Shown here: in pieces, positions 6,145 to 28,525 of the stretch
Numbering within the stretch: position 1 is the first letter of the stretch
Layout of the letters: each line of letters begins with the position of its first letter
NCBI GenBank assembly: GCA_028343845.1
Contig: JAOLZO010000022.1
Coordinates: 1-41,909 of the forward strand
Length of the DNA: 41,909 bases
From: Verrucomicrobiota bacterium
GTDB lineage: Bacteria; Verrucomicrobiota; Verrucomicrobiia; Opitutales; Seribacteraceae
Direction: 5' to 3'
The notes under the pieces: model-generated
What the model was told of the DNA's origin: nothing
The model's input: only the letters and a program-made list of their open reading frames with translations
The model's database searches: none
Program-made: the position numbers and the translations under genes

Positions 6145-6340
6145 ATGACTAAGGTAATTAAAAAAAAAAACCGAGTGAAGTTTAAAAATCCTTGAGTAGC
6201 CAAACTTATTTTGAAGTCTTTCTCCCTTGAAAAGTAATTTCATCTTTGTCTTTTTCCGTAACAAGGCAAAGCTAGGCGACATTCCGTTACCAATGTTCTC
6301 CTTACTTTAATTTACTCTCACCTTCACTCATTCATTCCTT
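6145..6340. promoter_or_regulatory. Divergent intergenic region with A11 tract
   Basis: This 196-bp AT-rich stretch separates the divergent PSD1-type gene (minus) and FAD oxidoreductase gene (plus), so both promoters should lie here. It contains an uninterrupted run of 11 A on the plus strand (about 6160-6170), just upstream of the minus-strand GTG. I do not see a convincing -35/-10 pair for either gene, and neither start has a ribosome binding site. Confidence 0.4.
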
Positions 6341-7618: not shown

Positions 7619-7626
7619 TTCGTGGT

Positions 7627-8571
7627 GTGAAAAAACGCCGTTTCGTTTCCCTTTTCAATCTTCTGCTTTTTGCCGTGATGGCAGGGTCGGGGGTTTGGGC
7701 GTTCGCTCAACCTTTTTCTATTCAGGTGATCGGGTTGCACGCCTTGACCGGATTCATCTTCATTGCGGTGATCGGTTTGCATATCGCGAATAATTTCGCG
7801 CCCCTGAAGAAGTACTTGAAAAACCGGGTGGTGTGGTTGGTGTCGGGGCTTACGATTGCATTGGGGGCTCTTTTTTATATCCAGCCAAGCCCAATCAAAT
7901 CGATTCTTGGCTTGAGCGGTAATTTGGGCCCGGCTTTGGACCGTTTCGAGATGACCGAAGAGGGGATGAAGTACGATTTCGTTCCCTCGCCTTCCTACAA
8001 ATTGTCTTTGGATATCCGAACCGGTTCCACCTATTCTCTGGAAAATCCACCCCGTCTGGCGGTGTGGTTGGAGAATCAATCCTTTTATCACATCAAGACC
8101 CTTTACGCCTCCGAAACGACGGATGCGAAGGAAATGCTTCCTTACTGGGCGTTCAAGCTCAAGGGATGGGAAGAGGCGAAAAAGGAAGCGGAGAAAAAGG
8201 GGGTTGATCTGAACGAGACCGTGGATGCAGTTTCCGGAGCCACCGAGAACGGCTCCTTTGACCCGGCAGACTACATTGTTCCGGGAGAGACCAATTCATC
8301 CATGCCTTACCGGGTGATGATCGAGATCAACCAACCCGTTGACCCTACGGAAAAGTTGGAGGATCAGCCGTCCTTGATTTATCAGGTCGAAGTGGACAAC
8401 TTCGACCCGCGTACGTTTCAACTGCTCGAGTTGGTTGGATACCCAGTTCAGGAGAAGAACGAGGAGGGGAAGGAGGAATGGGCGATCTATTACGTCGACG
8501 AGCGTTTTGGATCAGCCATGGAATTGATAGACAGCGCCTTGCTATCGATCGAAAGGGTGACCGAGAAATGA
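7627..8571 (+). CDS. Membrane protein, DUF4405-like N-terminus with periplasmic DUF2271-like domain
   Basis: This 314-residue protein starts at a GTG 8 bp after the FAD oxidoreductase stop, so the two are probably one operon. About residues 8-90 form three hydrophobic segments (LLLFAVMAGSGVWAF; IGLHALTGFIFIAVIGLHIAN; VVWLVSGLTIALGALFYI). The second carries two His residues, as in small DUF4405 membrane proteins that bind heme b. The soluble remainder, presumably periplasmic, contains KLSLDIRTG, LAVWLENQ, IKTLYASE and VDAVSGATENGSFDPADY, which resemble DUF2271-type domains. I infer a role as membrane electron acceptor or donor for the upstream flavoprotein. Heme binding and the DUF2271 assignment are plausible but unproven from sequence alone. 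Confidence 0.8.
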   Translation: MKKRRFVSLFNLLLFAVMAGSGVWAFAQPFSIQVIGLHALTGFIFIAVIGLHIANNFAPLKKYLKNRVVWLVSGLTIALGALFYIQPSPIKSILGLSGNLGPALDRFEMTEEGMKYDFVPSPSYKLSLDIRTGSTYSLENPPRLAVWLENQSFYHIKTLYASETTDAKEMLPYWAFKLKGWEEAKKEAEKKGVDLNETVDAVSGATENGSFDPADYIVPGETNSSMPYRVMIEINQPVDPTEKLEDQPSLIYQVEVDNFDPRTFQLLELVGYPVQEKNEEGKEEWAIYYVDERFGSAMELIDSALLSIERVTEK

Positions 8572-8587
8572 AAAAGACTCTTTCCTA

Positions 8588-8603
8588 AAACGCTTGAGCG
8601 TTT
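8588..8603. terminator. Small convergent hairpin (possible bidirectional terminator)
   Basis: A perfect 6-bp inverted repeat, AAACGC / GCGTTT with a TTGA loop, lies between the stop of the DUF4405-like gene and the stop of the convergent flavodoxin gene, whose TAA (8604-8602) overlaps its right arm. The arms end in A/T runs on both sides, as expected for a bidirectional terminator. The stem is short, so this is only a candidate. Confidence 0.35.
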
Positions 8604-9063
8604 ATCCGGCAGCGAGAATTTCCTGAATCTTTGGGTAGAACTTGGTCTTCCACTCGGCAACCTCGTCGTCGTAGTAGGTGTCCAGTTCAAGACGGTCCAT
8701 GTAGCACTTGGCCCCTGCCTTTTGCAGATAGTCATCAATCTTCCGTCCGCACCCGCAAAATTCATCATAGCTAGTGTCTCCAAGCGCCACGATGGTGTAC
8801 TCGAGGTTGGGCAGGTCGCCTGCCTTTCCGTCTTCCAGATCGTAGTAGAAGTCCTCAACCATGGCAGGAGGCTCTCCGTCCCCCCACGTCGAAACGACGA
8901 TGAGGGCTTTCTCTACGGAAGAGAGATCGTCAACCGAATACTCGGAAAGATCGATCACTTCATTCTCTACGCCAAGATCAGTGAGTTCGTCTGCAATTTC
9001 CCGTGCGACGGTCTCGGAGTTACCGGTTTCAGTACCAAAAAATATGTCTAGTTTGTTAGCCAC
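8602..9063 (-). CDS. Flavodoxin-like FMN protein (MioC/sulfite-reductase-type)
   Basis: This is a 153-residue cytoplasmic flavodoxin-domain protein. The phosphate-binding loop for FMN is clear at about residues 10-16 (GTETGNSE), followed by the isoalloxazine-contacting loops STWGDGEPP (about 59-67) and ALGDTSYDEFCGCG (about 93-106). The TWGDGEPP and LGDTSYxxFC patterns are those of the flavodoxin domains of sulfite reductase/cytochrome P450 reductase and of MioC, rather than of classic short-chain flavodoxins. It is strongly acidic, as is usual for an electron carrier. The start is GTG at 9063; no alternative keeps the FMN loop better placed. It is transcribed alone and convergent with the redox pair 6341-8571. 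Its partner reductase is not in the window. Confidence 0.92.
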   Translation of the reverse strand: MANKLDIFFGTETGNSETVAREIADELTDLGVENEVIDLSEYSVDDLSSVEKALIVVSTWGDGEPPAMVEDFYYDLEDGKAGDLPNLEYTIVALGDTSYDEFCGCGRKIDDYLQKAGAKCYMDRLELDTYYDDEVAEWKTKFYPKIQEILAAG

Positions 9064-9329
9064 GATTATAAGTGATTGAAGTTTGGAATTTCAGCATAAA
9101 TCCTAATGATTTGATAATTTGTCAATTAGTAATTCTAATAAAAATCTTTGTCTTCGCAAACGAACCTCAAAAGATCTTTTGTTCAGGAGTTAAAATGCTG
9201 AGCGCGTTCTTCACGAAAACAAATTCTTTTTACTATAAGAGATCTTTTTCGGGATGCGGGGATTGGGCAATTTTGGGCGGAATTCATTCAGTCCCGAGGG
9301 TCAAGTAAACAAGCCTTGCTAACTGGGGG
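9064..9329. other. AT-rich intergenic region upstream of the flavodoxin gene
   Basis: This 266-bp AT-rich stretch holds no credible gene. A short plus-strand frame at 9072-9308 has no recognisable motif. On the minus strand a perfect TTGACA (9125-9120) lies upstream of the flavodoxin gene, but the best -10-like hexamer, TATGCT (9098-9093), is 21 bp away. A perfect TATAAT (9070-9065) sits only one base before the GTG, too close to serve that start. The promoter is likely somewhere here, but I cannot place it. Confidence 0.35.
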
Positions 9330-9761
9330 TCAGCGGGAAATGCGACGCAATTTGGGGTTGGCCCTTTTCAATTTGAACGACCTGTGGATCGTCATGCCTG
9401 CGTTTTTTTTGCGGCCCGTAAAATCCATCAATTGAAAACCGTTCTTGATCGTGAGCAATTTCAACTTGATTTCGTAATCTGAAAATTCAAACGATGCGAA
9501 AATTCCATCTTTGTCGAGCCCATCCCCAACAGACTCCTCTTTCCAGGTCCCTTCAACCGATTCGTCATAAAGTCCGGTCAGGCTTGCCTTCCCTCCGTCT
9601 ATCAGTTTCAGCGTAATCAGAACCGTTTCGTCCTCCATGGCCAAGCTTCCTTCGTAGGTTCCTTCCAATGCAGGATCGTTTCCACCACAGGAGATGCCAG
9701 CAACTGCAACTATAAGAACAAGTGCCCAAGAACGAAAAACCTGAATAATTGATTGATTCAT
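9330..9761 (-). CDS. Small predicted lipoprotein of unknown function
   Basis: This 143-residue protein is predicted to be lipid-anchored. I start it at the ATG at 9761 because a signal sequence follows directly (MNQSIIQVFRSWALVLIVAV), ending in a lipobox-like AGISC-GG. The frame stays open further upstream, but that part overlaps the end of the DUF1501 gene. The mature part is almost all short beta strands (GTYEGSLAM, VLITLKLIDG, ASLTGLYDES, VEGTWKEE, IFASFEFSDY, IKLKLLTIKNGFQL), consistent with a small beta-barrel or lipocalin-like domain, distantly reminiscent of NlpE-like domains. The lipobox is not canonical at position -3 (Gly). It starts 10 bp after the DUF1501 stop and is probably co-transcribed with it. 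I do not recognise a family. Confidence 0.7.
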   Translation of the reverse strand: MNQSIIQVFRSWALVLIVAVAGISCGGNDPALEGTYEGSLAMEDETVLITLKLIDGGKASLTGLYDESVEGTWKEESVGDGLDKDGIFASFEFSDYEIKLKLLTIKNGFQLMDFTGRKKNAGMTIHRSFKLKRANPKLRRISR

Positions 9762-9771
9762 ATCCCTATAA

Positions 9772-11208
9772 TCAGGTGACGGGAAGCAATTCGTCAATGG
9801 GTTTTCCGTAGGGCAGGATGGGCATGGGCCGGCCACTGTGGTCGAGAAAGCTCTGATGATAATCTACACCCAAGTGTTGGTATACGGTTGCCCAAAGGTC
9901 ATTCGGGGTGAGAGGTCGGTCGATGGGTTCCTCTCCTCTGCTGTTGGTTGAGCCGATTACCTGACCGGTTCGCATTCCGCCTCCCGATAACAGCATGCTC
10001 ATGGCCTTGGGCCAGTGGTCGCGTCCCGGTTGATCAACTTTTGTTTTGCTTCCCTTGCCGACTGAGATTTTGGGTGTCCTGCCAAATTCACCGGTCACCA
10101 CGAGAAGGACCTTGCGGTCGAGTCCACGCTCATAGAGATCTTCGATCATTGCAGTAATGACGTGATCGTAAATGGGAAGGCGTACTTTGGCGTCCTTGAA
10201 AATATGGGAATTTACCGCATGACTGTCCCAATTATACGTGCCTTCGTCGATCCATGGAACCCCAGTGCCTCCATAGGGGTTTTCCATGACAACGGTTACC
10301 CAGTTGGCTCCGGCTTCCACCAGTCTTCTGGCCAACAGGGCGCGTGTCCCCCAATTATGAGACCCAAAGCGTTCACGCGTCCTCTTGCTTTCCTTGCTCA
10401 GGTCGAATGCATCGCGTACTTGATTGGAAGTGAGCATGGAAAGAGCCCGCTCGTTAAAGCTGTCCAAAACGGAAAACTCTTCCTTGGCGAAAAGGGAATC
10501 CCTCAATGAATCGTATCCTTTGAGGAGGTTCATGCGGTCGCCCAATCGATCGGCGAAGCTAGCATCGACACCTAGGTTTTCAACTTTGAAATCCTTCTCG
10601 CTTGGGTCGGCGGATATGGCGAAGGGATGGGTTTCCGAACCGAGATAAGCGGAACCGAAACTGAAGGTGTCGACGTTGTTTACACGACCATTGCCGAGGG
10701 CTACGTATCCGGGCATGTCCCCAACCCTTCCCTGATCGGAAAGGTACTTGTGAGCCATGGAGCCAACGCAGGGGTAGTCGTTGACGAACCCGGTTGGTTG
10801 TTTGGGATCCCGTCCAGTTAGGAATCTCTTGTGTCCGCCTCCATGATCGGCAAAATCGTGGTGGACGGACCGCACGAGGCAATACTTGTCTGCGATCTTA
10901 GCGTGCATGGGCAAAAGTTCGCAAATCTCCATGCCGGTGACGTTAGTCTTGATCGGACGGAATTCACCCCGATGGGTGGAGGGGGCATCGGGTTTCATAT
11001 CGTAGGTCTCCATGTGGGGAGCGCCACCCGGTAACCAAACGAAAATGACAGCGGTGTCTTTTTCCTCGTCGCTTTTGGATTTGGCCTCAAGCAGACTGGA
11101 AAGCCCGAGCATGCCACAGGAGGCACCTCCTATTTGCAGGAAAGATCTCCTGGTCAAGGGCCCGGGACAGAGCCCGTTGCGCAAAGCACTGTCAGTCATG
11201 GATATCAT
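9772..11208 (-). CDS. DUF1501 family Tat-exported protein (no PSD1 partner)
   Basis: This 478-residue DUF1501 protein has a Tat signal (T-R20-R21-S-F-L-Q-I-G-G). Family motifs are present: FVWLPGGAPHMETYDMKP, HHDFADHGGGHKRFLTGRDP, RALLARRLVEAGANWVTV, VTGEFGRTPKIS, PGRDHWPKAMSMLLSGGGMRTGQ, and the usual C-terminal segment (PNDLWATVYQHLGVDYHQ). It belongs to a different DUF1501 subgroup from those at 1853 and 36661, which have WGGEFGRTP and MWMAGGG in the equivalent positions. Unlike them it has no DUF1549/DUF1553 neighbour; the gene after it is a small lipoprotein. An ATG three codons downstream (11199) is an equally possible start. Its function is unknown; the fold is that of alkaline phosphatases and sulfatases. 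Confidence 0.92.
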   Translation of the reverse strand: MISMTDSALRNGLCPGPLTRRSFLQIGGASCGMLGLSSLLEAKSKSDEEKDTAVIFVWLPGGAPHMETYDMKPDAPSTHRGEFRPIKTNVTGMEICELLPMHAKIADKYCLVRSVHHDFADHGGGHKRFLTGRDPKQPTGFVNDYPCVGSMAHKYLSDQGRVGDMPGYVALGNGRVNNVDTFSFGSAYLGSETHPFAISADPSEKDFKVENLGVDASFADRLGDRMNLLKGYDSLRDSLFAKEEFSVLDSFNERALSMLTSNQVRDAFDLSKESKRTRERFGSHNWGTRALLARRLVEAGANWVTVVMENPYGGTGVPWIDEGTYNWDSHAVNSHIFKDAKVRLPIYDHVITAMIEDLYERGLDRKVLLVVTGEFGRTPKISVGKGSKTKVDQPGRDHWPKAMSMLLSGGGMRTGQVIGSTNSRGEEPIDRPLTPNDLWATVYQHLGVDYHQSFLDHSGRPMPILPYGKPIDELLPVT

Positions 11209-17037: not shown

Positions 17038-18600
17038 CTAGCGGGCACCGACGCGTTGCCGCCAGGTTTCGTAGCGGGCGGCCATGTCCTTGACGCGTTC
17101 AGGATGACGCTTGGCCAAGGTAGCGGTTTCGCCGGGGTCGGATGAAAGATCATAGAGTTCCCAAGGTGATTTGTCCCCGGGGCGAACGATTTTCCAGTCG
17201 CCCATGATGAGGGCTCGACCGCGGGGGTTGGCCCAAGCCAAGGTCTCGTGACCGTCACGTTTCTCGCCACGCAGGATGGGGACAAGACTTTTGCCTTCCA
17301 TGGGAAGCGGTTTGCGGTTGCGGAATTCGCTGGGGTATTTCAGGTCGGCCAAGTCGAGGCAAGTGGCCATGACGTCGATGACGTGTCCGGGTTGCCGGGT
17401 GAGCCCGTTTCCTTTCTTGATGATCTTGGGCCAGTGCGCGATGAGCGGAGTCCGGATACCTCCTTCGTAGGACGACAACTTGGTGCTGCGCAGAGGGGTG
17501 TTGCTGGTGAGAGCCCAAGCCAATCCATAGCCGGCGAAAGTATCGTGCGACCCGGGCATGACTTTCGGACCACTGCCGGGACGAATGACCACCTTGTCCT
17601 TGCGCCAATTCTTTTTTGGAGAACTCGGACTGAATCCAAAACCACTGCCGCTTGGACCCAGCCCCCCGTCGGGAGCGGCTCCATTGTCGGAGAGAAAGAG
17701 AATGAGGGTGTCCTCGAGTTGGCCGGATTCATCAAGTACCTCGAGCATCCGTCCCACCCCGCGGTCGACGTTGGATATTTGGGCTGCATAGACCGCCATG
17801 CGCTCGGCCTGCCAGTCCTTATGCTTGTCCCTAGCCCAGTCCGGTATGTTTGCTGGATAGGGCGCGGGCTTGGCCCCATCCGGCAGGAGCCCCATCTTAC
17901 TCTGGCGCTCGAAGCGGGTCGCCCGCCAGTCGTTCCAACCTTGTTTGCGGTAGCGCTCGCGGTAGGGCGCTATGGTTTTTTCACGGGCGTGCAAGGGCCA
18001 GTGCGGGGCCACGTATCCGACGTACAGGAAGAAAGGCTTCTTGCCGGTGACAGCTTCCTCGAGAAAGGTTACGGCATGATCGTTAAAGGCATCGGTCATG
18101 AAAAAGTCGTCGGTGAATTTCCACGGCTTGTCATCGAGGTAGAAATCGTTTTGCGCGACGGGATGCCAATAGCTGATCATGCCTTGGCAGTTAGGACCGA
18201 AGAAACGGTTGAAGCCGCGCTTCACCGCGAGGTCTCGTCCTTGCCACTTGCCGACCATGGCGGTGTGGTATCCTCCTTCTTGCAGTAGTTCGGGGATGAG
18301 CACGCATTTCGAAAAATTCTTCGGATGGTTCCAACTGTTGCCCCGGTGACCGGTTTGCTGACAGTAAAGGCCGGACAGCAAAGAGGCCCGGGTAGGTCCG
18401 CATACGGAGTTGTTGTAAAAACGGGTGAAGCGCAAGCCGCCCGCTGCCAGCGAGTCGACGTTGGGCGTATCGATTTCACCGCCGTAGCAACCTAGGTCGG
18501 ACCAACCCATGTCGTCGACCATGACCAAGAGGATGTTGGGCCGTTTGTCGGCATGCAGCAAAGCGGCGAGGAAGAACAGCGGCAGGCGTAAGGTTTTCAT
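17038..18600 (-). CDS. Secreted type I sulfatase
   Basis: This 520-residue sulfatase hydrolyses a sulfate ester, probably on a polysaccharide, outside the cytoplasm. The start is the ATG at 18600, followed by a Sec signal (MKTLRLPLFFLAALLHA). Metal-binding D29-D30 lie in the VDDMGWSDLGCYGG motif, and the formylglycine signature is C67-G-P-T-R-A-S-L-L-S-G, where Cys67 must be converted by a formylglycine-generating enzyme not encoded here. GKWQGRD, YVAPHWPLHA and LFLSDNGA match further active-site blocks. The ending (DWKIVRPGDKSPWELYDLSSDPGET) is the usual sulfatase C-terminus. It is second in the operon, 28 bp after the deacetylase-dehydrogenase fusion and 13 bp before the DUF4838 gene, which ties it to the same substrate. 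The specificity is unknown. Confidence 0.95.
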   Translation of the reverse strand: MKTLRLPLFFLAALLHADKRPNILLVMVDDMGWSDLGCYGGEIDTPNVDSLAAGGLRFTRFYNNSVCGPTRASLLSGLYCQQTGHRGNSWNHPKNFSKCVLIPELLQEGGYHTAMVGKWQGRDLAVKRGFNRFFGPNCQGMISYWHPVAQNDFYLDDKPWKFTDDFFMTDAFNDHAVTFLEEAVTGKKPFFLYVGYVAPHWPLHAREKTIAPYRERYRKQGWNDWRATRFERQSKMGLLPDGAKPAPYPANIPDWARDKHKDWQAERMAVYAAQISNVDRGVGRMLEVLDESGQLEDTLILFLSDNGAAPDGGLGPSGSGFGFSPSSPKKNWRKDKVVIRPGSGPKVMPGSHDTFAGYGLAWALTSNTPLRSTKLSSYEGGIRTPLIAHWPKIIKKGNGLTRQPGHVIDVMATCLDLADLKYPSEFRNRKPLPMEGKSLVPILRGEKRDGHETLAWANPRGRALIMGDWKIVRPGDKSPWELYDLSSDPGETATLAKRHPERVKDMAARYETWRQRVGAR

Positions 18601-18628: not shown

Positions 18629-21600
18629 CTATCGGCTTGGGGATAGGTCAACGGTTTTTGAATTCGTCCAGTTTCTGCCGTTTTCGGGAGGTTCCGCATC
18701 TTGCGGGAGCAAGCGTACTTCCCTCAGGTCCATGAGAAACCCCGAATTCAACTTGTCGTCGATCCGGACAATGAGCCGGTGAATCCCTTTTTTGAGTTCG
18801 ATCTTTCCCATCTTTCCCCATTCGTACTTGTCCCAAGACCCTGTACCCGGAACGGGAGCGCTCAGTAGGTAAGTCGAAACCGTGAGGTTTAATCTGTCTC
18901 GCTTGCCTTTATCGGGAAGCGCCCAGTCAATCCAAACGTCATAAGCGCCTGCCTCTTCGATCTCAAAGGTCCATTCCGCCCGGTCCGCCTCACTGCGCCA
19001 AAAACCGAGGTTCTTGTATTTTTGCTCGAAGACAATGCTTGGGCCGTAGATCTCGGCAGACCCAGCGGGGAGTCTTACGATTCCTTTTTCCGATGCATAA
19101 AGAAGCGTTGGCTGATTGTTTTTAAATTCCTTTCTTTTTTCTCCGGCAACTTGCAGGTAGGCCAAAAGATCGGGCATCTGCTGGATGCTGATCACCGATT
19201 CGAGACCCTCCGGCATTAAGGACCGGCCGGTCGAAACAAGAGAGACGAGATCATTTTTCGGAATTTTTGTTCTTTCACCGGTAATGCCGGTTATGGTCAC
19301 GGAGGCACTGGTTTCTTCCGTGACCGATCCCATGAAGGTGAGATCTTTTTTTGTCTTTGCTATAAATTGGATCCAATCGCCATCCACTCCTTGGTTGGGA
19401 TCGAGAATTCCGTTGAGGTAGGTTTGAGGGGCCCGGTTGCTCAGGGCGGCCAGATCCGGCCCCAAGGCGGTGCCCGTTCCGTCCAGACGATGGCAACTCG
19501 AGCAGTGAGAGACAAAAAGAGCTTTTCCTTTCAGCTTGTCTCCCGGTTTGTTGATCGTCGGGCCGTACCGCTTGAGAACTTCCGCCCTCGCAGGCCTGGA
19601 ATTCTCCTGCAGACTCTCTTTTGCAAGCTTGCTTATTTCATCATCATTATGGGTCAGGAGCAGTTGCCTTCGGGTCAGATCAATGGAGCTTCTCAGTTCG
19701 TCGTTTTCCTTGGCCATTTTCAGAAAAAGCATCGTCAGGCTCTTTCGCCTTACCATTTCATCGATCATCACCTGACGCAACGCCGGGCTGTGATTTTTCC
19801 ATCCCTGCAGCATTTTCCCAGCAGCTTTTGCATCACCCTTTCTGAGCAGAGCTTTACAACTGCTTGCTTGCAAAGTTGCTGGCTGGCTTACGTTCAAAAG
19901 CTCGAAAAGAGCTTTTCTGTCCTTTTCACTTTCAATTCCCGTCAGTCCGATCAAATTCACCGAGGCAATTCTCACCTCAAGATCATGATCGGGGTCCGTC
20001 GCGATTTTCCATGTCGAATCGAGCACGCCCTTAAGTTCCCGGTTGGTACGTTCGTCTATTCCGGCCGTTTCCAGAATCATTGCCAGAGCTTTGATTCTCG
20101 AAGGGTCCTTGAGCTTTTCACCGGAGAATCTTGAAATTATTTTTGAAATCAGTTCTTTGGATTTACTGCCTGACAATTTGATCAGTTCATTGATGATGAC
20201 CGATTTCTCCGGGCTTTCTTGCAAATCCAAAACAGTAAGGAGGACTTCTTCAGGGAAGTTGCTTGCCGCCGTAAGGGCCGCCGTCCTGAGGTACGGGTCT
20301 TTCGGATGCGCGGCGATGAATTTCCCAAGCGCCCTGGCAACTTCCTTACTGCGATAATTTCCCAAGGCATAGGCGGCTTCCCTTCGAACCTGACTGTCTT
20401 TGTCTTCGAGCAGTCTTATCATTCCATTTGCCAATTGCGGATCTTGACTAAGGGATTGCGAGCCCACCCTTAGCGCGTTGCGCCTGACCCCGTGGTGTTG
20501 ATCCTTGAAGCCTGACAAAACGTCTTTTTTGGTGATCAAGCCAAGATCAGCCAGGGCGCTCAACGCCTGAACCCTTCCGGCGGCGCTCTTCCCAAGGGAA
20601 ACGGTTCTCCTGAGCGGAGCTTCCGCGCTCTTTCGTTCTTCTTCCCTTAACCAGGTGAGCATCATGTGCGCGGTGTCACGTTGCCATGCGTTTGGCGAGT
20701 CGATTGCCTCGGCCAGTTGCTCGGCGTTCATTCCGGAAAGTTTCCTGACCGGATGCAGTTTGCGCCCTTCGGGCCAAACCCTGTAAATTCTTCCCTTGTC
20801 ATGACCCGCCCGTAGTCTTCCGTCCTCGATCATTTCTTTCGTGAGCTGCTTGTCGATCCATTCGGGATGCTCGATTACGAGCCGGTACATGTCGGCGACG
20901 TAGAGAGCTCCGTCGGGCCCGTTCCTTATCGCCGTTGGCCTGAACCATGAGTCCTTGCTACGCAGGAATTCACTGTTTGATTCGTCTTTGGCTCTGGATG
21001 TTTTCATCCGGACGCCATTCCATTCGATGACCTCTCGGTGGATGCAGTTGTGCACGGGGCATGAGAAATAAATTGAGGGCTTGACGATTCCATCGAATAG
21101 CGAGCCCCTGTAAAAAGTATAGCCACAACCGGACGTCAGCTTCCCCGGTGAACCGGCAGGAGGGGGCCTGTATCCACTCCAATGGCTCAGGACCTGGCTG
21201 GCTGGATAAAGGTTGATCACGCCTGTGATGGGGTTTCTGGAGTTCGGTTGAGAGATCAAGGTGTTCTTACGGATATGGTGGTCTTCCAAAATGATATGCC
21301 AGGCGTTGGAGTTGTTTCCGGCGATCCAGTTTCCCCAGTCATCCCGATTCCGGCCATGCTGGGTTCTGCCGGTGGCTCTTTCAAGTTCCCCGGTATCGGG
21401 TCTGATCCTGAGATCTGATCCGCCAAGCACCAATTGTTGGCCTGTGATTTTGGATCTGATTGTTCCTCCGCTGTCTCCGTTGCCAACGTAGATCCAACCG
21501 TCCAGTCCCCAGGCAAGCCCGTTCACCCGGTGCTGTTCGTTCCCCCGCCCGAAGCCTTCGTAGAGAATTCTTTTTTCATCCGCAATGCCGTCACCGTTCT

Positions 21601-23785
21601 GGTCACGCATGAACCAAATGGTTGGAGGAGCGACAACCAAGGCCCCGTCCCGCCATGGAAGAACCGTATTGGCTGTTTCGAGACCTTGTGCAAAAACCAC
21701 TCTCTTGTCGTATTTCCCATCCCCGTCGCTATCCGATACGGTGGCGACGCGCCCTCCGGGCTTCCCTTTGTTGTCAATGCCAAGCGGATAGTCCGCCATC
21801 TCGGCAACCCACATTTTTCCGTCCGGTCCCCATGCAACGTCGACTGGATCCATGACGAGAGGCTCGGAGGCAACCAGATCGACTCTGAACCCAGGCCTCG
21901 TTTCAATCGATTGCAAGGAAGTTTGCGGGCTTTTCGGACGTTGAGCGTGATCGCCAAGGATATCGGAAAAGGATCTTTGGTCGATGTGATGCGGAAGGGT
22001 TTGACCGGTGTCTTCATTTTGCCAATAGAGATTCCCCCGCTTGATCCAGGCTCCGTTGTTCGTTCCGTCGCTCCTGACGATCGGGGGGAGAACCTTTCGT
22101 TCTCTGGGGTGGTTCTCGCCCGTTCCGGAATTCCCCCGTTTGCCTCCGATCCCTCGGAGGCTCCACCCATCCTTGAACGACTTGAAAAGCCAAGTTCCGT
22201 AGCTTTCGGAATTCGAGAAGATGACGTCCTCAAGACCGTCTTGATCGAGGTCTGCGAAACGAAGACCTGCGTCTTGCCCTTCGCCGGTGACGATTGAGGT
22301 GCCCTTGGGGAGAGAGAAGGGCAACAACTCCCATCCCTTTTCCTTTAGCTGGTATACTTCCGACCGGGCGGGACTTCCCACGATCAGTTCACAGGTTCCG
22401 TCCCGGTCAATGTCTCTGAACCTGACACCCGCATCCCTGCCATCGGAATGGGATGCAACGCGTTCAAGTCCCCTGGTGAGCGTATCTTCCTGAATCCAGA
22501 AATCTTTTTGGAAGGACCAGGCCTTGAGTTCTCCTTTCGCGTCAGCGCTGAAAGCAAACGTTTTGAATTTTTTATCATCAAAACCGAACCTAAGACCCGG
22601 ATGCATTCTTTCGGGGAATGGAATTTCCTTCCAGGAAGAATTGTCCGGTTTCCATATCCGGCACTTTCGGGCCTCGGAATTTGCGATCAGAACATCCATA
22701 TATCCGTCCTTGTCGATATCGAATATCCTGACGCCGTTATCCTTCCCGTCCTTATCTCTGAGGCTATGGCCGTCGAGCATGTTTTTTCTCATCAGGTCAT
22801 GCATCTCCAGCATAGTGAGAAATTTGATTTTTTTACCATGAGTCTTGTCGGCATAGTCAACGACTTCGACCATCTGTCCGCTGCGCATCCAGGATCCTGC
22901 ATGAAAGCATAGGGAGACTGCTCCTTTTTTAGCGACCGTCGCGTCGAGGGCCGCCTTGAAGTCATCAATGGTGATTTGGTTTCCTTTCCCGTGCAGGACT
23001 TGCCCGGTATAATCGTTTGGATATACGAAGGGAAGTTCCCAAATCTTGTTGCCCACCACGAAGGGGTAGGGATAATTTTCAACGTAATTGACAAACCCGT
23101 TCATCAGGTATTTCGAAAACCTTTTCGGGCCTCCGGATTCCTTTGGGAATAGTGATTGATCGAGTTGCTTGTCCTCGGGGGTAAAGACAACGCCAACGCT
23201 AGTGCTCATGGAGACGAAATTCCCCCCGGGGCTTTTCCCGTTCATGATTTCAGCATAGGCTCTCGGGCTTGGGGTGTTTTGCCCGTCCATGCAGGGGAAC
23301 CGAAACCCGATCGTCCGGCTGTTCGGGATTTTGGCAAGAAGATCGACACACCGGTGGAAATCACTCACCGCCCGCTCAAACGCTCCCTTTTGCAACAAAG
23401 GGCATGGGTGAGTCGTGGTGTGCGCCTCCAGCGAGACTCCCTGCTTAAGGAACCATTGCATGTTGGGGTGTTCGGGGTCCGGCCGGTTGCAGGTAATGCT
23501 CACCGGGCCACGGCCATCGATTTCCTGTAGTCTGGAAAGGATCGGGCTCAGGTAGCTGCGAAAGCGTTGACCGTCTCCGGACATATCGTCAATGGCCAGG
23601 ACGGCCACTGCCAATACCTCCTTTTCCCCGATCCATTGAGGAGTGATTAACTTGGGGGATTCCCGACTAAACTGCCACGGGTTGTTTGGCTCATCGAGAT
23701 GAACGATCCGATTTCCGTCCTTTGCATAGGACGTAGTAATCGCCAACAATACGCTTAGCGCGAGGATCTTCAGGGGTAAATGCAT
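18629..23785 (-). CDS. Giant fusion: polysaccharide deacetylase, VCBS repeats, PVC-type dehydrogenase, HEAT repeats, cytochrome c, CBM
   Basis: This 1718-residue secreted protein has a Sec signal (residues 1-21). At about 58-330 it has a NodB-like polysaccharide deacetylase domain: AIDD (D66, D67), H122-TTT-H126, R162-F-P and the closing SLCFH (H295). FG-GAP/VCBS repeats follow at about 350-530 (FDIDKDGYMDV, FRDIDRDGTCEL, FADLDQDGLEDV). A PVC-type membrane-bound dehydrogenase-like propeller starts at about 630 (RPGFRVDLVASEP, VAWGPDGKMWVAEMADYP) and extends to about 1000, followed by HEAT repeats to about 1400. A cytochrome c domain has C1428-S-S-C-H1432 and a candidate distal ligand M1524 (SLMPEG). 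A C-terminal carbohydrate-binding region (GFWRSEADRAEWTF, AGAYDVWIDWALPD) covers about 1565-1700. It is the first gene of the operon. Base composition is AT-richer than its downstream partners. I infer coupled deacetylation and oxidation of a glycan. The order of domains is sure; the catalytic activities are inferred. Confidence 0.93.
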   Translation of the reverse strand: MHLPLKILALSVLLAITTSYAKDGNRIVHLDEPNNPWQFSRESPKLITPQWIGEKEVLAVAVLAIDDMSGDGQRFRSYLSPILSRLQEIDGRGPVSITCNRPDPEHPNMQWFLKQGVSLEAHTTTHPCPLLQKGAFERAVSDFHRCVDLLAKIPNSRTIGFRFPCMDGQNTPSPRAYAEIMNGKSPGGNFVSMSTSVGVVFTPEDKQLDQSLFPKESGGPKRFSKYLMNGFVNYVENYPYPFVVGNKIWELPFVYPNDYTGQVLHGKGNQITIDDFKAALDATVAKKGAVSLCFHAGSWMRSGQMVEVVDYADKTHGKKIKFLTMLEMHDLMRKNMLDGHSLRDKDGKDNGVRIFDIDKDGYMDVLIANSEARKCRIWKPDNSSWKEIPFPERMHPGLRFGFDDKKFKTFAFSADAKGELKAWSFQKDFWIQEDTLTRGLERVASHSDGRDAGVRFRDIDRDGTCELIVGSPARSEVYQLKEKGWELLPFSLPKGTSIVTGEGQDAGLRFADLDQDGLEDVIFSNSESYGTWLFKSFKDGWSLRGIGGKRGNSGTGENHPRERKVLPPIVRSDGTNNGAWIKRGNLYWQNEDTGQTLPHHIDQRSFSDILGDHAQRPKSPQTSLQSIETRPGFRVDLVASEPLVMDPVDVAWGPDGKMWVAEMADYPLGIDNKGKPGGRVATVSDSDGDGKYDKRVVFAQGLETANTVLPWRDGALVVAPPTIWFMRDQNGDGIADEKRILYEGFGRGNEQHRVNGLAWGLDGWIYVGNGDSGGTIRSKITGQQLVLGGSDLRIRPDTGELERATGRTQHGRNRDDWGNWIAGNNSNAWHIILEDHHIRKNTLISQPNSRNPITGVINLYPASQVLSHWSGYRPPPAGSPGKLTSGCGYTFYRGSLFDGIVKPSIYFSCPVHNCIHREVIEWNGVRMKTSRAKDESNSEFLRSKDSWFRPTAIRNGPDGALYVADMYRLVIEHPEWIDKQLTKEMIEDGRLRAGHDKGRIYRVWPEGRKLHPVRKLSGMNAEQLAEAIDSPNAWQRDTAHMMLTWLREEERKSAEAPLRRTVSLGKSAAGRVQALSALADLGLITKKDVLSGFKDQHHGVRRNALRVGSQSLSQDPQLANGMIRLLEDKDSQVRREAAYALGNYRSKEVARALGKFIAAHPKDPYLRTAALTAASNFPEEVLLTVLDLQESPEKSVIINELIKLSGSKSKELISKIISRFSGEKLKDPSRIKALAMILETAGIDERTNRELKGVLDSTWKIATDPDHDLEVRIASVNLIGLTGIESEKDRKALFELLNVSQPATLQASSCKALLRKGDAKAAGKMLQGWKNHSPALRQVMIDEMVRRKSLTMLFLKMAKENDELRSSIDLTRRQLLLTHNDDEISKLAKESLQENSRPARAEVLKRYGPTINKPGDKLKGKALFVSHCSSCHRLDGTGTALGPDLAALSNRAPQTYLNGILDPNQGVDGDWIQFIAKTKKDLTFMGSVTEETSASVTITGITGERTKIPKNDLVSLVSTGRSLMPEGLESVISIQQMPDLLAYLQVAGEKRKEFKNNQPTLLYASEKGIVRLPAGSAEIYGPSIVFEQKYKNLGFWRSEADRAEWTFEIEEAGAYDVWIDWALPDKGKRDRLNLTVSTYLLSAPVPGTGSWDKYEWGKMGKIELKKGIHRLIVRIDDKLNSGFLMDLREVRLLPQDAEPPENGRNWTNSKTVDLSPSR

Positions 23786-23955: not shown

Positions 23956-24714
23956 ATGAAACTACTGTTCATTGCCCTCGCTTTTGTCTTCCAACTTACG
24001 GTCTTTGCCGATCATCATGGAAAGAAACCACTCAAGGCACTGATGATAACCGGCGGTTGTTGTCACGATTACAAGAACCAAAAAAACATCATAAGCGAAG
24101 GGATAACCGAGCGCGTCAAGACCAAGTGGGATATCTTTTTCGAGATGGATCAGGCCAAGAGCAAGGCCCACTTGAGCAAGAAGGGTTGGTCGGATGGTTT
24201 TGATTACATCGTTTACAATCATTGCTTTGCCCACGAAAAGGATGCTTCCTTTGTAAAATCGATCACCGACATACACAAGGCTGGCAAGCCTGCCTTGGCT
24301 CTCCATTGCGCCATGCATTCCTATCATTGGAGCATTCCGGCCGAGGGCGACAACAAGAAGGCTTGGCCTGAAATGCTCGGAGCCAGTTCAAAGGGACATG
24401 GACCAAAGGCCGCCATTACGGTTAAAAAGGTAAAGAAGCATGCTGACCACCCGATCGTAAAGGATTTGCCCGATGGTTGGTTGACGCCCGAAGGCGAGCT
24501 TTACAACGTCCAGAAAGTTTATGAGGGAACGACCGTTCTTGCCCATGGTGAAAACGGAAAGGCCAAGGAACCCCAAGCCTGCGTATGGATCAATACCCAT
24601 GGCAAGGGCCGTATTTTCTCGACCACGCTTGGCCACCACAATTCCACCATGTCGACCAAGGAGTACCTTGATATGTTGGGCAATGCGGTCAAGTGGATCA
24701 CTGCGAAGAAATAG
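23956..24714 (+). CDS. ThuA-like domain protein, secreted
   Basis: This 252-residue protein is a ThuA-like (trehalose-utilisation/glutamine-amidotransferase-like fold) protein. A Sec signal of about 18 residues (MKLLFIALAFVFQLTVFA) is followed by a His-rich junction (DHHGKK). Family segments are KALMITGGCCHDY, YIVYNHCFAHE, GKPALALHCAMHSYHW (the position of the nucleophile elbow in the fold, with Cys preserved) and GKGRIFSTTLGHHNSTM, followed by a C-terminal helix with NAVKWI. Its length is normal for a single-domain secreted ThuA. Members of this family frequently accompany PVC-type dehydrogenases and sugar oxidoreductases. Here it precedes the pentaheme cytochrome gene by 51 bp. The enzymatic role is not established for secreted members. 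Confidence 0.92.
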   Translation: MKLLFIALAFVFQLTVFADHHGKKPLKALMITGGCCHDYKNQKNIISEGITERVKTKWDIFFEMDQAKSKAHLSKKGWSDGFDYIVYNHCFAHEKDASFVKSITDIHKAGKPALALHCAMHSYHWSIPAEGDNKKAWPEMLGASSKGHGPKAAITVKKVKKHADHPIVKDLPDGWLTPEGELYNVQKVYEGTTVLAHGENGKAKEPQACVWINTHGKGRIFSTTLGHHNSTMSTKEYLDMLGNAVKWITAKK

Positions 24715-24765
24715 TCCTTCTTATTTAGTTACGTCCTAAAAAAGGATTTCGCTGCGGGCACGCGA

Positions 24766-27057
24766 ATGAAGAGAGGAACTCTTCATTTAACGCTTTTCTT
24801 TCTTTGGTTTGCCTGCGGTTTGGATGCCCACCCCTTTGTCCCGGGCTTGGAGGGAAACCCCTCGCTCAGCTTGCAGGAGTCCGGGGATGTTCTGATCGGT
24901 GAGTTGCAGTGTTCGAATTGTCATGAAGGAGAGCGCGACGATCCTTTGGCAAGGAAGCGCGGTCCGAATTTGAGCGAGGTAGGACGGAGGCTCGCGCCAG
25001 GTTACCTGCTCGAGTTTCTTTCCAATCCGCTTGAAGCGCACGGGGGGACCAAGATGCCCGACTTGATGAGTTCGATGAATGCCGGTCAGCGCAAGGATTC
25101 GGCTGCGGCATTAAGCGCCTTCTTGCGCAGTCTGGGTGAGGAGAAGAGTTTTCCTCAATGGGAGGAGAAGGGAAACCCAAAGAGGGGAAAGATTCTTTTT
25201 GGGGAAGTGGGTTGCATGGCCTGCCACGCGACACCATCCGAGGAGGCCGTTGCGGAGAAGGAAGATCGGATCGGTTCTCTTGGTTACCTGTCGGGCAAGT
25301 ATCCGCGCCCTGCCTTGGCGGCGTTTCTACATGATCCTTTGCGGGTGCGGGAATCAGGGCGCATGCCGGACTTTCATCTTACGCGCTCGGAAGCTAATGA
25401 TTTGGCCGAGTACCTTGTCCGGGGAAGACCGGTTGATGCAACGGCATCGAAGCCTGTTGCCGAGCAAATAGAGGAGGGGAGGGGATTGTTCGTGAAACTC
25501 AATTGCGTGGCCTGCCATAGGCTAGAGGACATGCCCGTGGGCAAGCCTTCCTTGCCCATGACGAAGTTACGTCGGGACCGTGGTTGCCTATCTGCAAAAC
25601 CGCAGGGGGTGCCGGACTACGGGCTTTCCGCATTTCAGAGGAAAGCGATTGGCGAGGCCTTGGCGGGGCGCCCGGACCGACTTAAGTCCGGAGGATTGAT
25701 CAAGCGAGCGCTCAGCGCATTTAACTGCATCGCTTGTCATGAGCGGGATGATTATGGAGGTCCGTCTGCCAAGTTGAAGTTGTCTTTGAAAAGTTCACAG
25801 GAAGGGTTGGGAGATCATGGCAGGTTTCCCCCGTCCCTAAGCTTGGTCGGTGCGAAACTGAAGCCCGGCTGGATTAACAAGGTGATGTTCGACGGGGAGT
25901 CCGCCCGTCCTTACATGCATACGAGGATGCCTAGTTTTGGAGAGCGAAACTTGGGCTTTCTGCCCACCTTGTTTAGCCAAGCGGATCAACTTCCCGAGAT
26001 GAAATTCCCGGAGATCCCAAGAAAGAAAAGAGGTGAAATGAGGAGCGCCGGACACAAGTTGGTCGGGGACAAGGGGCTTAATTGCGTGGCTTGTCACGTA
26101 TTTAACGGAAAATCGGCCGGAGGATTTCAGGGACTCGATCTGCTCGCCACTTACGATCGGTTGACGCCAAATTGGTTTGCTTCCTTCATGCGTGACCCGG
26201 CTAAGTACCGCCCCGGTATCGTCATGCCAAGCTACTGGGCGGGAGGACAATCGGCTGACAAGGAAACCCTCGATGGCAATGCCTCCGCTCAGCTTCATGC
26301 CATCTGGCATTTTCTTTCCTATGGACAGGGAGCCCCGACTCCCTCCGGGATTGGAAACCCGGGGACGAACCTTGAGATTGCGGACAGAGCCCTCGTTTAT
26401 CGCGGGCGTAGCCGGGTAGCTGGTTATCGTGGGATCTCAGTGGGGTTTCCCGAAGGGATACATTATGCTTTCAATGCTGAGACGGGAGCCCTTTCGGCTC
26501 TATGGAGAGGTGAATTCGTGAGTGTCGGGTGGGGAGGTCAAGGCGCGGGAAACTTCAACCCCCGGTCCCGAGCCGTCCAGCTTTCCCAAGACCTTGCTTT
26601 TCAGCCCGTGAGTCAAAGGGGCAAGCCTTGGCCAACCCTGCCGAAGATGACCAAGGAGAACCCGGTCAATCCTGATCCGCTTTACCCGAAGAACTTGGGA
26701 TATAGGTTCCGTGGATATTCTCTCGATGATCATGGAGTCCCTACTTTTTCCTATGAGTTCGGGAAACTTGCGGTTGAGGATTTCTCGCGCCCCCGACCAC
26801 TTCCCGACGCTCATCTGCTTAGAAGAACGCTTCGGATAACGAGCCCTGCCCGGGAAGGCCTTCTTTTTCGGGCCTTGGTCGGGAAAATCGAAAGGGAGAA
26901 AGAAGGCGTATTCGTGACTCCTGAACTTCGCTTGAGCATTCTCGATGGGCAACCCCGTTTGAGAGATGGTTTGGATGGCAACCATGAGCTGATCATCGAG
27001 CTTTCCCTGAAAAAGGGGAAATCCGAATTCGTCTTAGACTATGAAGCCCTGCGCTAA
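24766..27057 (+). CDS. Pentaheme c-type cytochrome with unique C-terminal domain
   Basis: This 763-residue exported protein has five CxxCH heme-binding motifs: C49-S-N-C-H, C149-M-A-C-H, C246-V-A-C-H, C320-I-A-C-H and C439-V-A-C-H. A Sec signal lies at about residues 4-21. Between the motifs are Met-containing segments typical of class I cytochrome folds (KMPDLMSSMN, RMPDFHLTRSEANDLAEYL, RMPSFGERNLGFLP, VMPSYWAGG). Residues about 530-763 contain no heme motif and are beta-rich (YRGISVGFPEGIHYAFNAETGALSALW). This resembles the C-terminal extension found in similar PVC cytochromes and may be a carbohydrate- or propeller-interacting module. It overlaps the next gene by 17 bp, so they are translationally linked. 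I infer that it passes electrons from the downstream propeller protein to the respiratory chain; no redox partner is proven. Confidence 0.92.
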   Translation: MKRGTLHLTLFFLWFACGLDAHPFVPGLEGNPSLSLQESGDVLIGELQCSNCHEGERDDPLARKRGPNLSEVGRRLAPGYLLEFLSNPLEAHGGTKMPDLMSSMNAGQRKDSAAALSAFLRSLGEEKSFPQWEEKGNPKRGKILFGEVGCMACHATPSEEAVAEKEDRIGSLGYLSGKYPRPALAAFLHDPLRVRESGRMPDFHLTRSEANDLAEYLVRGRPVDATASKPVAEQIEEGRGLFVKLNCVACHRLEDMPVGKPSLPMTKLRRDRGCLSAKPQGVPDYGLSAFQRKAIGEALAGRPDRLKSGGLIKRALSAFNCIACHERDDYGGPSAKLKLSLKSSQEGLGDHGRFPPSLSLVGAKLKPGWINKVMFDGESARPYMHTRMPSFGERNLGFLPTLFSQADQLPEMKFPEIPRKKRGEMRSAGHKLVGDKGLNCVACHVFNGKSAGGFQGLDLLATYDRLTPNWFASFMRDPAKYRPGIVMPSYWAGGQSADKETLDGNASAQLHAIWHFLSYGQGAPTPSGIGNPGTNLEIADRALVYRGRSRVAGYRGISVGFPEGIHYAFNAETGALSALWRGEFVSVGWGGQGAGNFNPRSRAVQLSQDLAFQPVSQRGKPWPTLPKMTKENPVNPDPLYPKNLGYRFRGYSLDDHGVPTFSYEFGKLAVEDFSRPRPLPDAHLLRRTLRITSPAREGLLFRALVGKIEREKEGVFVTPELRLSILDGQPRLRDGLDGNHELIIELSLKKGKSEFVLDYEALR

Positions 27058-28525
27058 ACTTCTCTTGTTGCTCTTTCCTCTCCTTCCCCCTGCCTGGGGC
27101 GAGGAGGTTGGGGAGTGGTGGGGGACGGCCGAGCGTGAGCGAGCCTACTACCGTATAACCGAAATCCCCATTCCCAAGGGTTTGGTTATCGAATCGGGTG
27201 CCTTCGTTACCCTGCCTGAGGACAGGATCGCGATTGGCACTCGGAGAGGAGATATTTTTATTTCGTCGGGAATCGATCGGAGAAAGCCAATCCCTACATT
27301 CGAGCTTTTTGCGTCGGGACTGGATGAGATCTTCGGCTTGGCTTACAGGGATGACGCTTTTTACGTTACCCAGAGTTGCGAGCTTACCCGGGTGACGGAC
27401 CGCGATGGGGATGGTCGCGCTGACAAATTCGAGACGATCTCCGATGGCTGGGGGTATGGTAATTATCATGAGTATGCCTTCGGATCGAAATTCGATCCCA
27501 AGGGCAATCTTTACGTCGCTCTCGGTCTTTCCAATTCCTACCATTCCCGGGCTTTGTTCCGGGGGTGGGCCATGAAGATTACCCCCGAAGGAAAAACCAT
27601 CCCTATTGCCAGTGGGCTGAGGAGTCCGGGAGGGATCGGGCCAAACGAGCACGGGGCTCTTTTTTACATCGAAAGCCAGGGCCCGTGGAACTCCTCCTGC
27701 AGCCTCAAATTCTTGAAGGAGGGAGGATTCATGGGGCATCCGGTTAGCTTTAACTGGTACGAATATGCCAAGAATCTAGAGGGCCCGCCAAAGAATCCAG
27801 AGTCAGGAGGGCGCATCGTGACCGAGAAGAAGAAAGTGAAGGAACTGGTTCCTTATGCGGTGATCTTCCCTTATATCCGGATGGGACGCTCAATCAGTGG
27901 GTTCGTGGTTAACCGGACGAAGGGAAAGTTCGGCCCGTTCGAGGACCAGATCTTTATCGGTGACTATACCCAGTCGATCGTGATGCGGGCCACGACCGAA
28001 AAAATCAACGGTGTCTGGCAGGGTGCTTGTTACCCTTTCCGCGAAGGTTTCTCCACGGGCATTCTCAACCTCCAGTTCACTCAGGCCGGGAATCTTTTAT
28101 CCGGTGGAACCAATCGTGGTTGGCCGGTCCGGGGAAGGAAACCCTTTGCCTTGGAGAGAATCGACTGGACGGGCAAGATGCCTTTTGAAATCAAGCAAGT
28201 ATCGATCACCCCGGAAGGATTCTCCATAACCTTTACCAAACCCGTTCATCGAAGTTCGGGAATGGATCCTAAAAATTACCGTTTGTCGACCTTTACGCAT
28301 ATTTACCACGGTGGGTATGGCGGGCCGGAGGTCGATCAGACCGCACCGGTTGTCCAAAGCGTAAACTTGTCGAAGGACGGTATGGAAGCGCGGATCGAGG
28401 TTTCGGAAATTACCCCAGGTCACGTCTATGAGTTAGACTTGGGAACTTTGCGCGATGCCGGGAGTGAAGCGCTGCTTCATAGGCAGGCCTATTACACGGT
28501 TAACGAAATTCCAGTAAGCAAGTAA
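27041..28525 (+). CDS. Secreted beta-propeller protein (PVC sugar-dehydrogenase-like)
   Basis: This 494-residue protein has a Sec signal (MKPCAKLLLLLFPLLPPAWG) and then a beta-propeller resembling the soluble glucose/sorbosone dehydrogenase fold used by PVC-type dehydrogenases. Visible blades are PEDRIAIGTRRGDIFI, FGLAYRDDAFYVTQSCEL, a DRDGDGRADKFE calcium-binding-like loop, GNLYVALGLSN, GGIGPNEHGALFYIES, IFIGDYTQSIV and LLSGGTNRGWPVRGRKP. The last 120 residues form an Ig-like bacterial domain (SITPEGFSITFTKPV, DGMEARIEVSE). The start ATG lies inside the end of the upstream cytochrome gene (17-bp overlap), arguing for coupled translation. A quinone cofactor (PQQ) is possible but not shown by sequence. 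Function is inferred as oxidation of a sugar or alcohol, with the cytochrome as acceptor. Confidence 0.88.
   Translation: MKPCAKLLLLLFPLLPPAWGEEVGEWWGTAERERAYYRITEIPIPKGLVIESGAFVTLPEDRIAIGTRRGDIFISSGIDRRKPIPTFELFASGLDEIFGLAYRDDAFYVTQSCELTRVTDRDGDGRADKFETISDGWGYGNYHEYAFGSKFDPKGNLYVALGLSNSYHSRALFRGWAMKITPEGKTIPIASGLRSPGGIGPNEHGALFYIESQGPWNSSCSLKFLKEGGFMGHPVSFNWYEYAKNLEGPPKNPESGGRIVTEKKKVKELVPYAVIFPYIRMGRSISGFVVNRTKGKFGPFEDQIFIGDYTQSIVMRATTEKINGVWQGACYPFREGFSTGILNLQFTQAGNLLSGGTNRGWPVRGRKPFALERIDWTGKMPFEIKQVSITPEGFSITFTKPVHRSSGMDPKNYRLSTFTHIYHGGYGGPEVDQTAPVVQSVNLSKDGMEARIEVSEITPGHVYELDLGTLRDAGSEALLHRQAYYTVNEIPVSK

Follow-up and report, generated by a model that had tools for sequence, protein, structure and literature searches.

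A NodB-like domain fused to a DUF7133 haem protein of the PVC type recurs widely in Planctomycetota and occurs in Verrucomicrobiota

A single gene of a Verrucomicrobiota bacterium encodes a 1718-residue protein in which a NodB-like domain and FG-GAP repeats stand in front of a DUF7133 propeller, HEAT repeats, a cytochrome c domain and a C-terminal domain resembling carbohydrate-binding modules (CBM). This fusion is real and widespread. It is a variant of a known PVC haem protein type, and its anatomy is that read by a first-pass annotation of the 41,909-nt stretch of DNA that we analysed (hereafter the window). The features are listed below, with the evidence for each.

18629..23785, minus strand: whole fusion gene, 1718 aa; ATG at 23785, stop at 18629-18631; single ORF
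23723..23785, minus strand: probable signal peptide, residues 1-21 (MHLPLKILALSVLLAITTSYA); read by eye from the sequence
22751..23722, minus strand: NodB-like domain, residues 22-345; Pfam, conservation, profile, Foldseek
21986..22765, minus strand: FG-GAP (VCBS) repeat region, residues 341-600, with DxDxDG loops at 356, 458 and 512; Pfam, motif, Foldseek
20666..21970, minus strand: DUF7133/TIGR02604 propeller, residues 606-1040; Pfam, NCBIfam, beta strands in a low-confidence model
19586..20665, minus strand: HEAT-repeat region, residues 1041-1400; Pfam, low-confidence model, fold search
19136..19570, minus strand: TIGR02603 cytochrome c domain, residues 1406-1550, with CSSCH at 1428; Pfam, NCBIfam, motif
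18632..19120, minus strand: CBM6/35-like C-terminal domain, residues 1556-1718; PDB profile search, CBM_6 in relatives
17038..18600, minus strand: sulfatase gene directly downstream; Met at 18600, 28 bases past the fusion stop if this Met is the start

Pfam identifies DUF7133 (residues 619-1005, 2.5e-135), HEAT_2 (3.8e-14), FG-GAP_3 (2.8e-9) and cytochrome c (1419-1468, 7.6e-8) in the fusion protein, together with two matches below the curated cut-offs, Polysacc_deac_1 (0.054) and CBM_6 (0.061). Two NCBIfam models score above their cut-offs, TIGR02604 at 632-1006 (259.6 vs 122.2 bits) and TIGR02603 at 1415-1545 (99.7 vs 68.15 bits), and the CSSCH at 1428 is the sole CxxCH in the protein. These matches and the motifs bear out the reading frame and domain order of the first-pass annotation, with the NodB and CBM_6 calls below cut-off. 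The repeats that it named VCBS are present under the current Pfam name FG-GAP_3, of which we take VCBS to be the older name. The start codon is consistent with an ungapped 1718-residue alignment to the protein of a related locus, L031. In the host assembly, a 2.5 Mb draft genome that is 64% complete, the N-terminal 613 residues are matched at one place only, and the DUF7133 part is matched elsewhere too. A fusion produced by chance or by assembly can be ruled out, because near-genome-long contigs (e.g. L104, L112-L114 and L118) hold the identical arrangement in the same order.

The N-terminal domain is classified here as NodB-like rather than as a CE4 member because, taken alone, it scores 17.5 bits against PF01522 (Polysacc_deac_1), under the curated cut-off of 23.1. 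The same model matches all eight members of set A3 at E<=1 (best 6e-6; window domain 0.0041), and the NodB domain of one relative, L115, lies above the cut-off with 24.4 bits. A PF01522 search of the window's own genome gives no match at 0.001, and therefore the family model itself misses this NodB-like domain. When a profile of 48 NodB domains (A4) was searched against the PDB, it found the deacetylases PdaC (6h8l, 7.5e-6) and PgdA (2c1g, 0.0071). Aligned to PdaC, the profile places five of the six proposed motif residues (D66, D67, H122, H126 and R162) on the Asp-Asp, His-x3-His and Arg of that enzyme.

All six residues, D66, D67, H122, H126, R162 and H295, are found where the first-pass annotation placed them, and are kept in 48/48 full-length NodB domains down to 41% identity to the window (two pieces of a broken locus, L038, were left out). 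Each of these domains thus has an Asp-Asp, a His-x3-His, an Arg and a final His, which we take to be CE4 motifs 1, 2, 3 and 5, respectively. For six specified residues, the probability of all lying at the 33 invariant positions of 324 is 7e-7, a figure that ignores both the relatedness of the sequences and the frequent conservation of such residues. Loss of the Asp/His triad in homologues, which would have counted against a NodB-type site, was looked for, and the triad is kept in all 48. A dead NodB site was likewise rejected, with no motif residue lost in any of these domains. The conservation supports the presence of a predicted NodB-type metal site under strong constraint. The flanks of the motifs are divergent. 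The canonical CE4 motif is TFDDG; here it reads AIDDM, and a Cys follows RxP. Two cysteines beside the metal motifs, Cys128 (after HP) and Cys165 (after RxP), are invariant in the 48 domains and may perhaps form a disulfide across the active site. We know of no such invariant pair in CE4 enzymes.

A model of the first half of the protein, built from an alignment of five sequences, is of low confidence (mean pLDDT 56.2, pTM 0.57). In a Foldseek search with this model, integrin alpha chains are the top matches among those listed and cover the FG-GAP part. NodB-fold chains account for 7 of the 50 matches listed, two of them at 0.001 or better. They include PuuE allantoinase (3cl6, TM by target 0.59) and PdaC (6h8n, TM by target up to 0.64). 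Further matches are 1z7a and 3rxz, whose titles call them probable or putative polysaccharide deacetylases. The structure prediction proposed as a check gives a weak indication of the NodB fold, from 7 of 50 listed matches to a model with a mean pLDDT of 56.2. PuuE allantoinases are purine-pathway enzymes. Because they are among the NodB-fold proteins, the substrate need not be a polysaccharide. PuuE is alike in fold and is absent from the sequence matches of the A4 profile.

The survey of genomes that the first-pass annotation had suggested shows that the architecture recurs widely in Planctomycetota. The NodB-like domain was found in 91/241 genomes of one family of that phylum (Pirellulaceae, the family of the genome carrying L034) at 97 places, 62 of them in frames of at least 1500 aa and 22 in frames of 600-700. 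Across the phylum of the genome carrying L033, it was found in 29/392 genomes at 31 places (26 in frames of at least 1500 aa, 2 in frames of 600-700), five of these genomes being common to the Pirellulaceae set. Places were counted by frame length alone, and some of them are two pieces of one frame. In the window's own order, 7/372 genomes were matched, own genome included; of the 23 genomes listed as its own or of the same genus, 3 were matched. An even draw over the window's phylum, queried with the N-terminal 613 residues, gave matches in 6/288 genomes, with the NodB part matched only in the own genome, and the GTDB contig collection yielded four loci related to the window fusion. A plasmid search returned 10 records. 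In none of them did a single place cover 80% of the query, and the five matches listed span at most residues 593-1196. A PHROGs search gave no match at 0.1.

Flanks were taken for 40 of the loci at these 97 and 31 places, half of them with short and half with long frames (20 each). Together with the previously collected loci, they supply the 48 full-length NodB domains. In total, 28 of the loci read carry NodB and DUF7133 in one frame, including the window and the reversed form described below. A CxxCH is present in 26/28 of these fused proteins, and the remaining two (L032 and L034) end at contig edges before the point where it would lie. DxDxDG-like loops number three in 19 of the fused proteins, two in 7, one in 1 and none in 1. 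A C-terminal CBM match was found in 18/28. L111 lacks a match to the window's CBM, yet its own sequence gives a clear CBM_6 match (1.5e-19). The same locus (genome G668, Pirellulaceae set) is the nearest relative outside the Opitutia loci, with 73% identity in NodB, and groups with the window at 100/100 on the tree, reflecting either transfer between phyla or a misbinned contig. Four relatives from the same family (L035, L036, L037 and L038) have an insert of ~190 residues between two FG-GAP parts and lack a CBM-like domain at the C-terminal end; the L035 insert gives no Pfam match above cut-off.

The two halves of the protein also occur apart. Of the 20 short-frame loci, 17 encode a stand-alone NodB+FG-GAP protein with a stop just before the expected start of DUF7133; two others reach a contig edge (L083 and L090), and in one (L086) the frames of a fused gene are broken. 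On a 48-row tree with 17 alone and 28 fused states (L086 counted as fused; L083, L090 and L115 uncounted), seven changes of state are seen, at least four of which are forced by well-supported branches, and shuffles gave values as low in 0-1 of 500. In L115, a 1683-aa frame (4989-10037) on an 8.4 Mb contig, the order is reversed, with DUF7133, a weak HEAT region and two cytochrome c domains followed by NodB and FG-GAP. In L119, one chain holds NodB, a ceramidase-like domain and then DUF7133. In L126, 4 kb separate a stand-alone NodB+FG-GAP gene from one that encodes ceramidase-like, DUF7133, haem and CBM parts, and genes for a dienelactone-hydrolase-like protein and a sigma-54 regulator lie between the two. 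Taken together, these findings show that the protein consists of two modules, NodB+FG-GAP and DUF7133+HEAT+haem+CBM, which can exist apart and have been brought together or split several times; when they share a chain, they therefore probably work on one and the same material.

Co-occurrence was assessed in 20 genomes, 17 with a stand-alone NodB (two of them also with a fused one) and three with a fused one. DUF7133 of the NodB-fused type was found at E<=1e-60 in 16/20, at 60 places. Four of the 17 stand-alone-NodB genomes (G811, G812, G815 and G816), drafts that may be incomplete, have no DUF7133 match at 1e-60, which argues that the NodB module can work without a partner of this type and that the halves need not cooperate. 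G813 (1.3e-67) and G658 (4.7e-82) have one weak DUF7133 match each.

The DUF7133 part had been read as a sugar dehydrogenase, which our searches do not support. Up to E = 1, no quinoprotein is among the PDB matches of a DUF7133 profile, and GSDH matches only 2/28 of the DUF7133 proteins, weakly (best 0.024). A model of the second half is of low confidence (mean pLDDT 55.5) and shows beta strands in the DUF7133 part; the 50 Foldseek matches listed for it are, by title, alpha-solenoid proteins and are uninformative for DUF7133. PqqE scores above cut-off in 0/25 family-carrying genomes and in 0/14 controls, a count that lacks a positive control because no control genome is above cut-off, and below cut-off it matches 22/25 and 14/14, respectively. 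A gene on a Ketogulonicigenium plasmid, preceded by a c-type cytochrome gene and annotated 'dehydrogenase', is 27% identical over residues 619-1196. The C-terminal domain scores 16.4 bits against CBM_6 (cut-off 28.9), and for this reason is called only CBM6/35-like. CBM_6 matches 18/20 C-terminal domains of relatives at E<=1 (best 1.3e-6), which makes the C-terminal CBM call of the first-pass annotation stronger for the family than for the fusion protein itself. A profile of these domains finds AaBgIC (2.5e-13) and an exo-beta-D-glucosaminidase (3.6e-6) in the PDB, i.e. they resemble domains of glycan-active enzymes.

Other hydrolases are found on the same DUF7133 chassis. Fourteen of the 60 DUF7133 places lie in frames of at least 1379 aa other than the NodB fusion, and all 14 were read. 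The N-terminal modules in front of DUF7133-HEAT-cytochrome c were scanned in 13 of them (L126-L139, leaving out L135, which is cut by a contig edge) and are Ceramidase_alk in 10, ThuA in 2 and PF00144 in 1; these counts are not frequencies, because loci were chosen by frame length. Identity to the window's DUF7133 is 37-46% for the ceramidase-linked proteins and ~26% for those linked to ThuA and PF00144.

The 28-base spacing suggests that the downstream sulfatase is likely co-transcribed with the fusion gene. The next genes on the same strand are a DUF4838/CBM9 gene, an 812-aa gene with no Pfam match at 0.001 and a DUF1501 gene, and in L031 the fusion is followed by a sulfatase (92% identical) and by DUF4838, 812-aa and DUF1501 genes in the same order. 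Four sulfatase genes lie within the window, with which a sulfated polysaccharide as substrate would fit. Outside the window's genus, no neighbour family is common to most loci in the 49 stretches compared (the window and 48 loci, many with short flanks), and the commonest are PSCyt/PSD1-type (13), DUF1501 (13) and sulfatase (9). These families are frequent in PVC genomes, and gene neighbourhood was rejected as a guide to substrate on this ground. Between the window and L031, identity is 73% for the fusion, 95% for the DUF4838 gene, 82-92% for most other neighbours and 61% for a cytochrome gene (24715-27054), which is below the fusion. The low identity of the fusion would reflect either fast change or allele replacement. 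A divergent cluster at 23956-28525, kept in L031 and L032, encodes ThuA, a cytochrome c-rich protein and a short DUF7133-like protein, and ThuA is elsewhere fused to DUF7133.

What the protein does can be proposed from its parts. The reading that we prefer, tentatively and with a little less than even confidence, is that the fusion, a multi-domain haem protein, is secreted and processes polysaccharide outside the cell. With the help of a divalent metal, the NodB-like domain would hydrolyse an acetyl ester, an acetyl amide or a related C-N bond. The chain would be held on its substrate by the CBM-like domain and the FG-GAP propeller, and the DUF7133 part would perform or receive a redox step, with the electron leaving via the haem. 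Where joined, the two modules would act on the same material. A less likely alternative is that the domain is a NodB-fold hydrolase of a different kind, either PuuE-like or active on the amide of a peptide or lipid, and that the haem part is the electron-transfer partner of something else. The fold match to PuuE points this way, as do the ceramidase-like modules in 10 of the 13 N-terminal parts scanned, the L119 chain with both NodB and ceramidase-like domains, the two invariant cysteines, and the four stand-alone-form genomes without a DUF7133 match. It is opposed by the best sequence matches, PdaC and then PgdA, both of which are peptidoglycan deacetylases, by the likeness of the C-terminal domains to those of glycan-active enzymes, and by the four sulfatase genes in the window.

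The scheme of the first-pass annotation, in which a sugar is first deacetylated and then oxidised with electrons passing to the attached haem, here with DUF7133 taken as a quinoprotein-type dehydrogenase, appears improbable to us. The absence of PDB quinoproteins from the DUF7133 matches, the faint GSDH similarity and the PqqE count (itself without a positive control) speak against it, and the domain order, the repeated joining of the two modules, the Ketogulonicigenium 'dehydrogenase' (by annotation only) and the dehydrogenase name that TIGR02604 presumably once bore speak for it. A further point in its favour is that fungal AA12 quinohaemoproteins combine a cytochrome and a PQQ dehydrogenase in one chain, according to PMC4332668. 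A role of the NodB-like domain as a mere binding module, with no catalysis, is very improbable, given six motif residues kept in 48/48 domains and one member above the PF01522 cut-off; the divergent flanks (AIDDM, RxPC) and the window's own score below cut-off are what such a module might present.

Comparison with known systems places the fusion next to the PVC-type heme-binding CxxCH protein (TIGR02604+TIGR02603), which is alike in its DUF7133 propeller, HEAT repeats and CxxCH haem domain; the window fusion adds NodB and FG-GAP in front and a CBM6/35-like domain behind. The nearest solved CE4/NodB deacetylases, PdaC and PgdA, share the Asp-Asp, HxxxHP, RxP and last His, and differ from the fusion protein in that the latter has AIDDM for TFDDG, a Cys after RxP, two invariant cysteines, a long stretch between R162 and H295, and the haem-protein fusion. 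The fungal AA12 pyranose dehydrogenase CcPDH, as described in PMC4332668, has a cytochrome and a redox enzyme in one chain. It differs in having haem b and a PQQ domain and no deacetylase, and no kinship to DUF7133 was detected (PDB profile, GSDH). The accessible part of PMC5615132 describes many haem proteins of unknown function in PVC genomes, often near sulfatases, and Planctomycete-specific cytochrome proteins (PSCyt), some with carbohydrate-binding modules and often near sulfatases. These have PSCyt/PSD domains instead of DUF7133/TIGR02603, and that part of the source makes no mention of NodB. In the open-licence literature searched, we found no account of the combination of deacetylase, FG-GAP, DUF7133, haem and CBM, and no description of an activity for the NodB+DUF7133 family. 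The first-pass statement that no described version was known thus stands for that literature, with the architecture itself being widespread in Planctomycetota.

In a broader scheme, DUF7133-HEAT-cytochrome c would be a general platform in Planctomycetota and some Verrucomicrobiota, coupling an exchangeable hydrolase (NodB-like, ceramidase-like, ThuA or PF00144) to electron transfer from the same substrate. We consider this unlikely on present evidence. If true, it would represent a class of hydrolase-redox enzymes, as yet undescribed, able to uncover extracellular material and also to oxidise it. That DUF7133 is repeatedly fused to a hydrolase that can be recognised, with the modules in either order and with a parted form besides, is a direct clue to its substrate, and the fusion offers a defined protein in which to ask whether the product of a hydrolase reduces the haem of the same chain.
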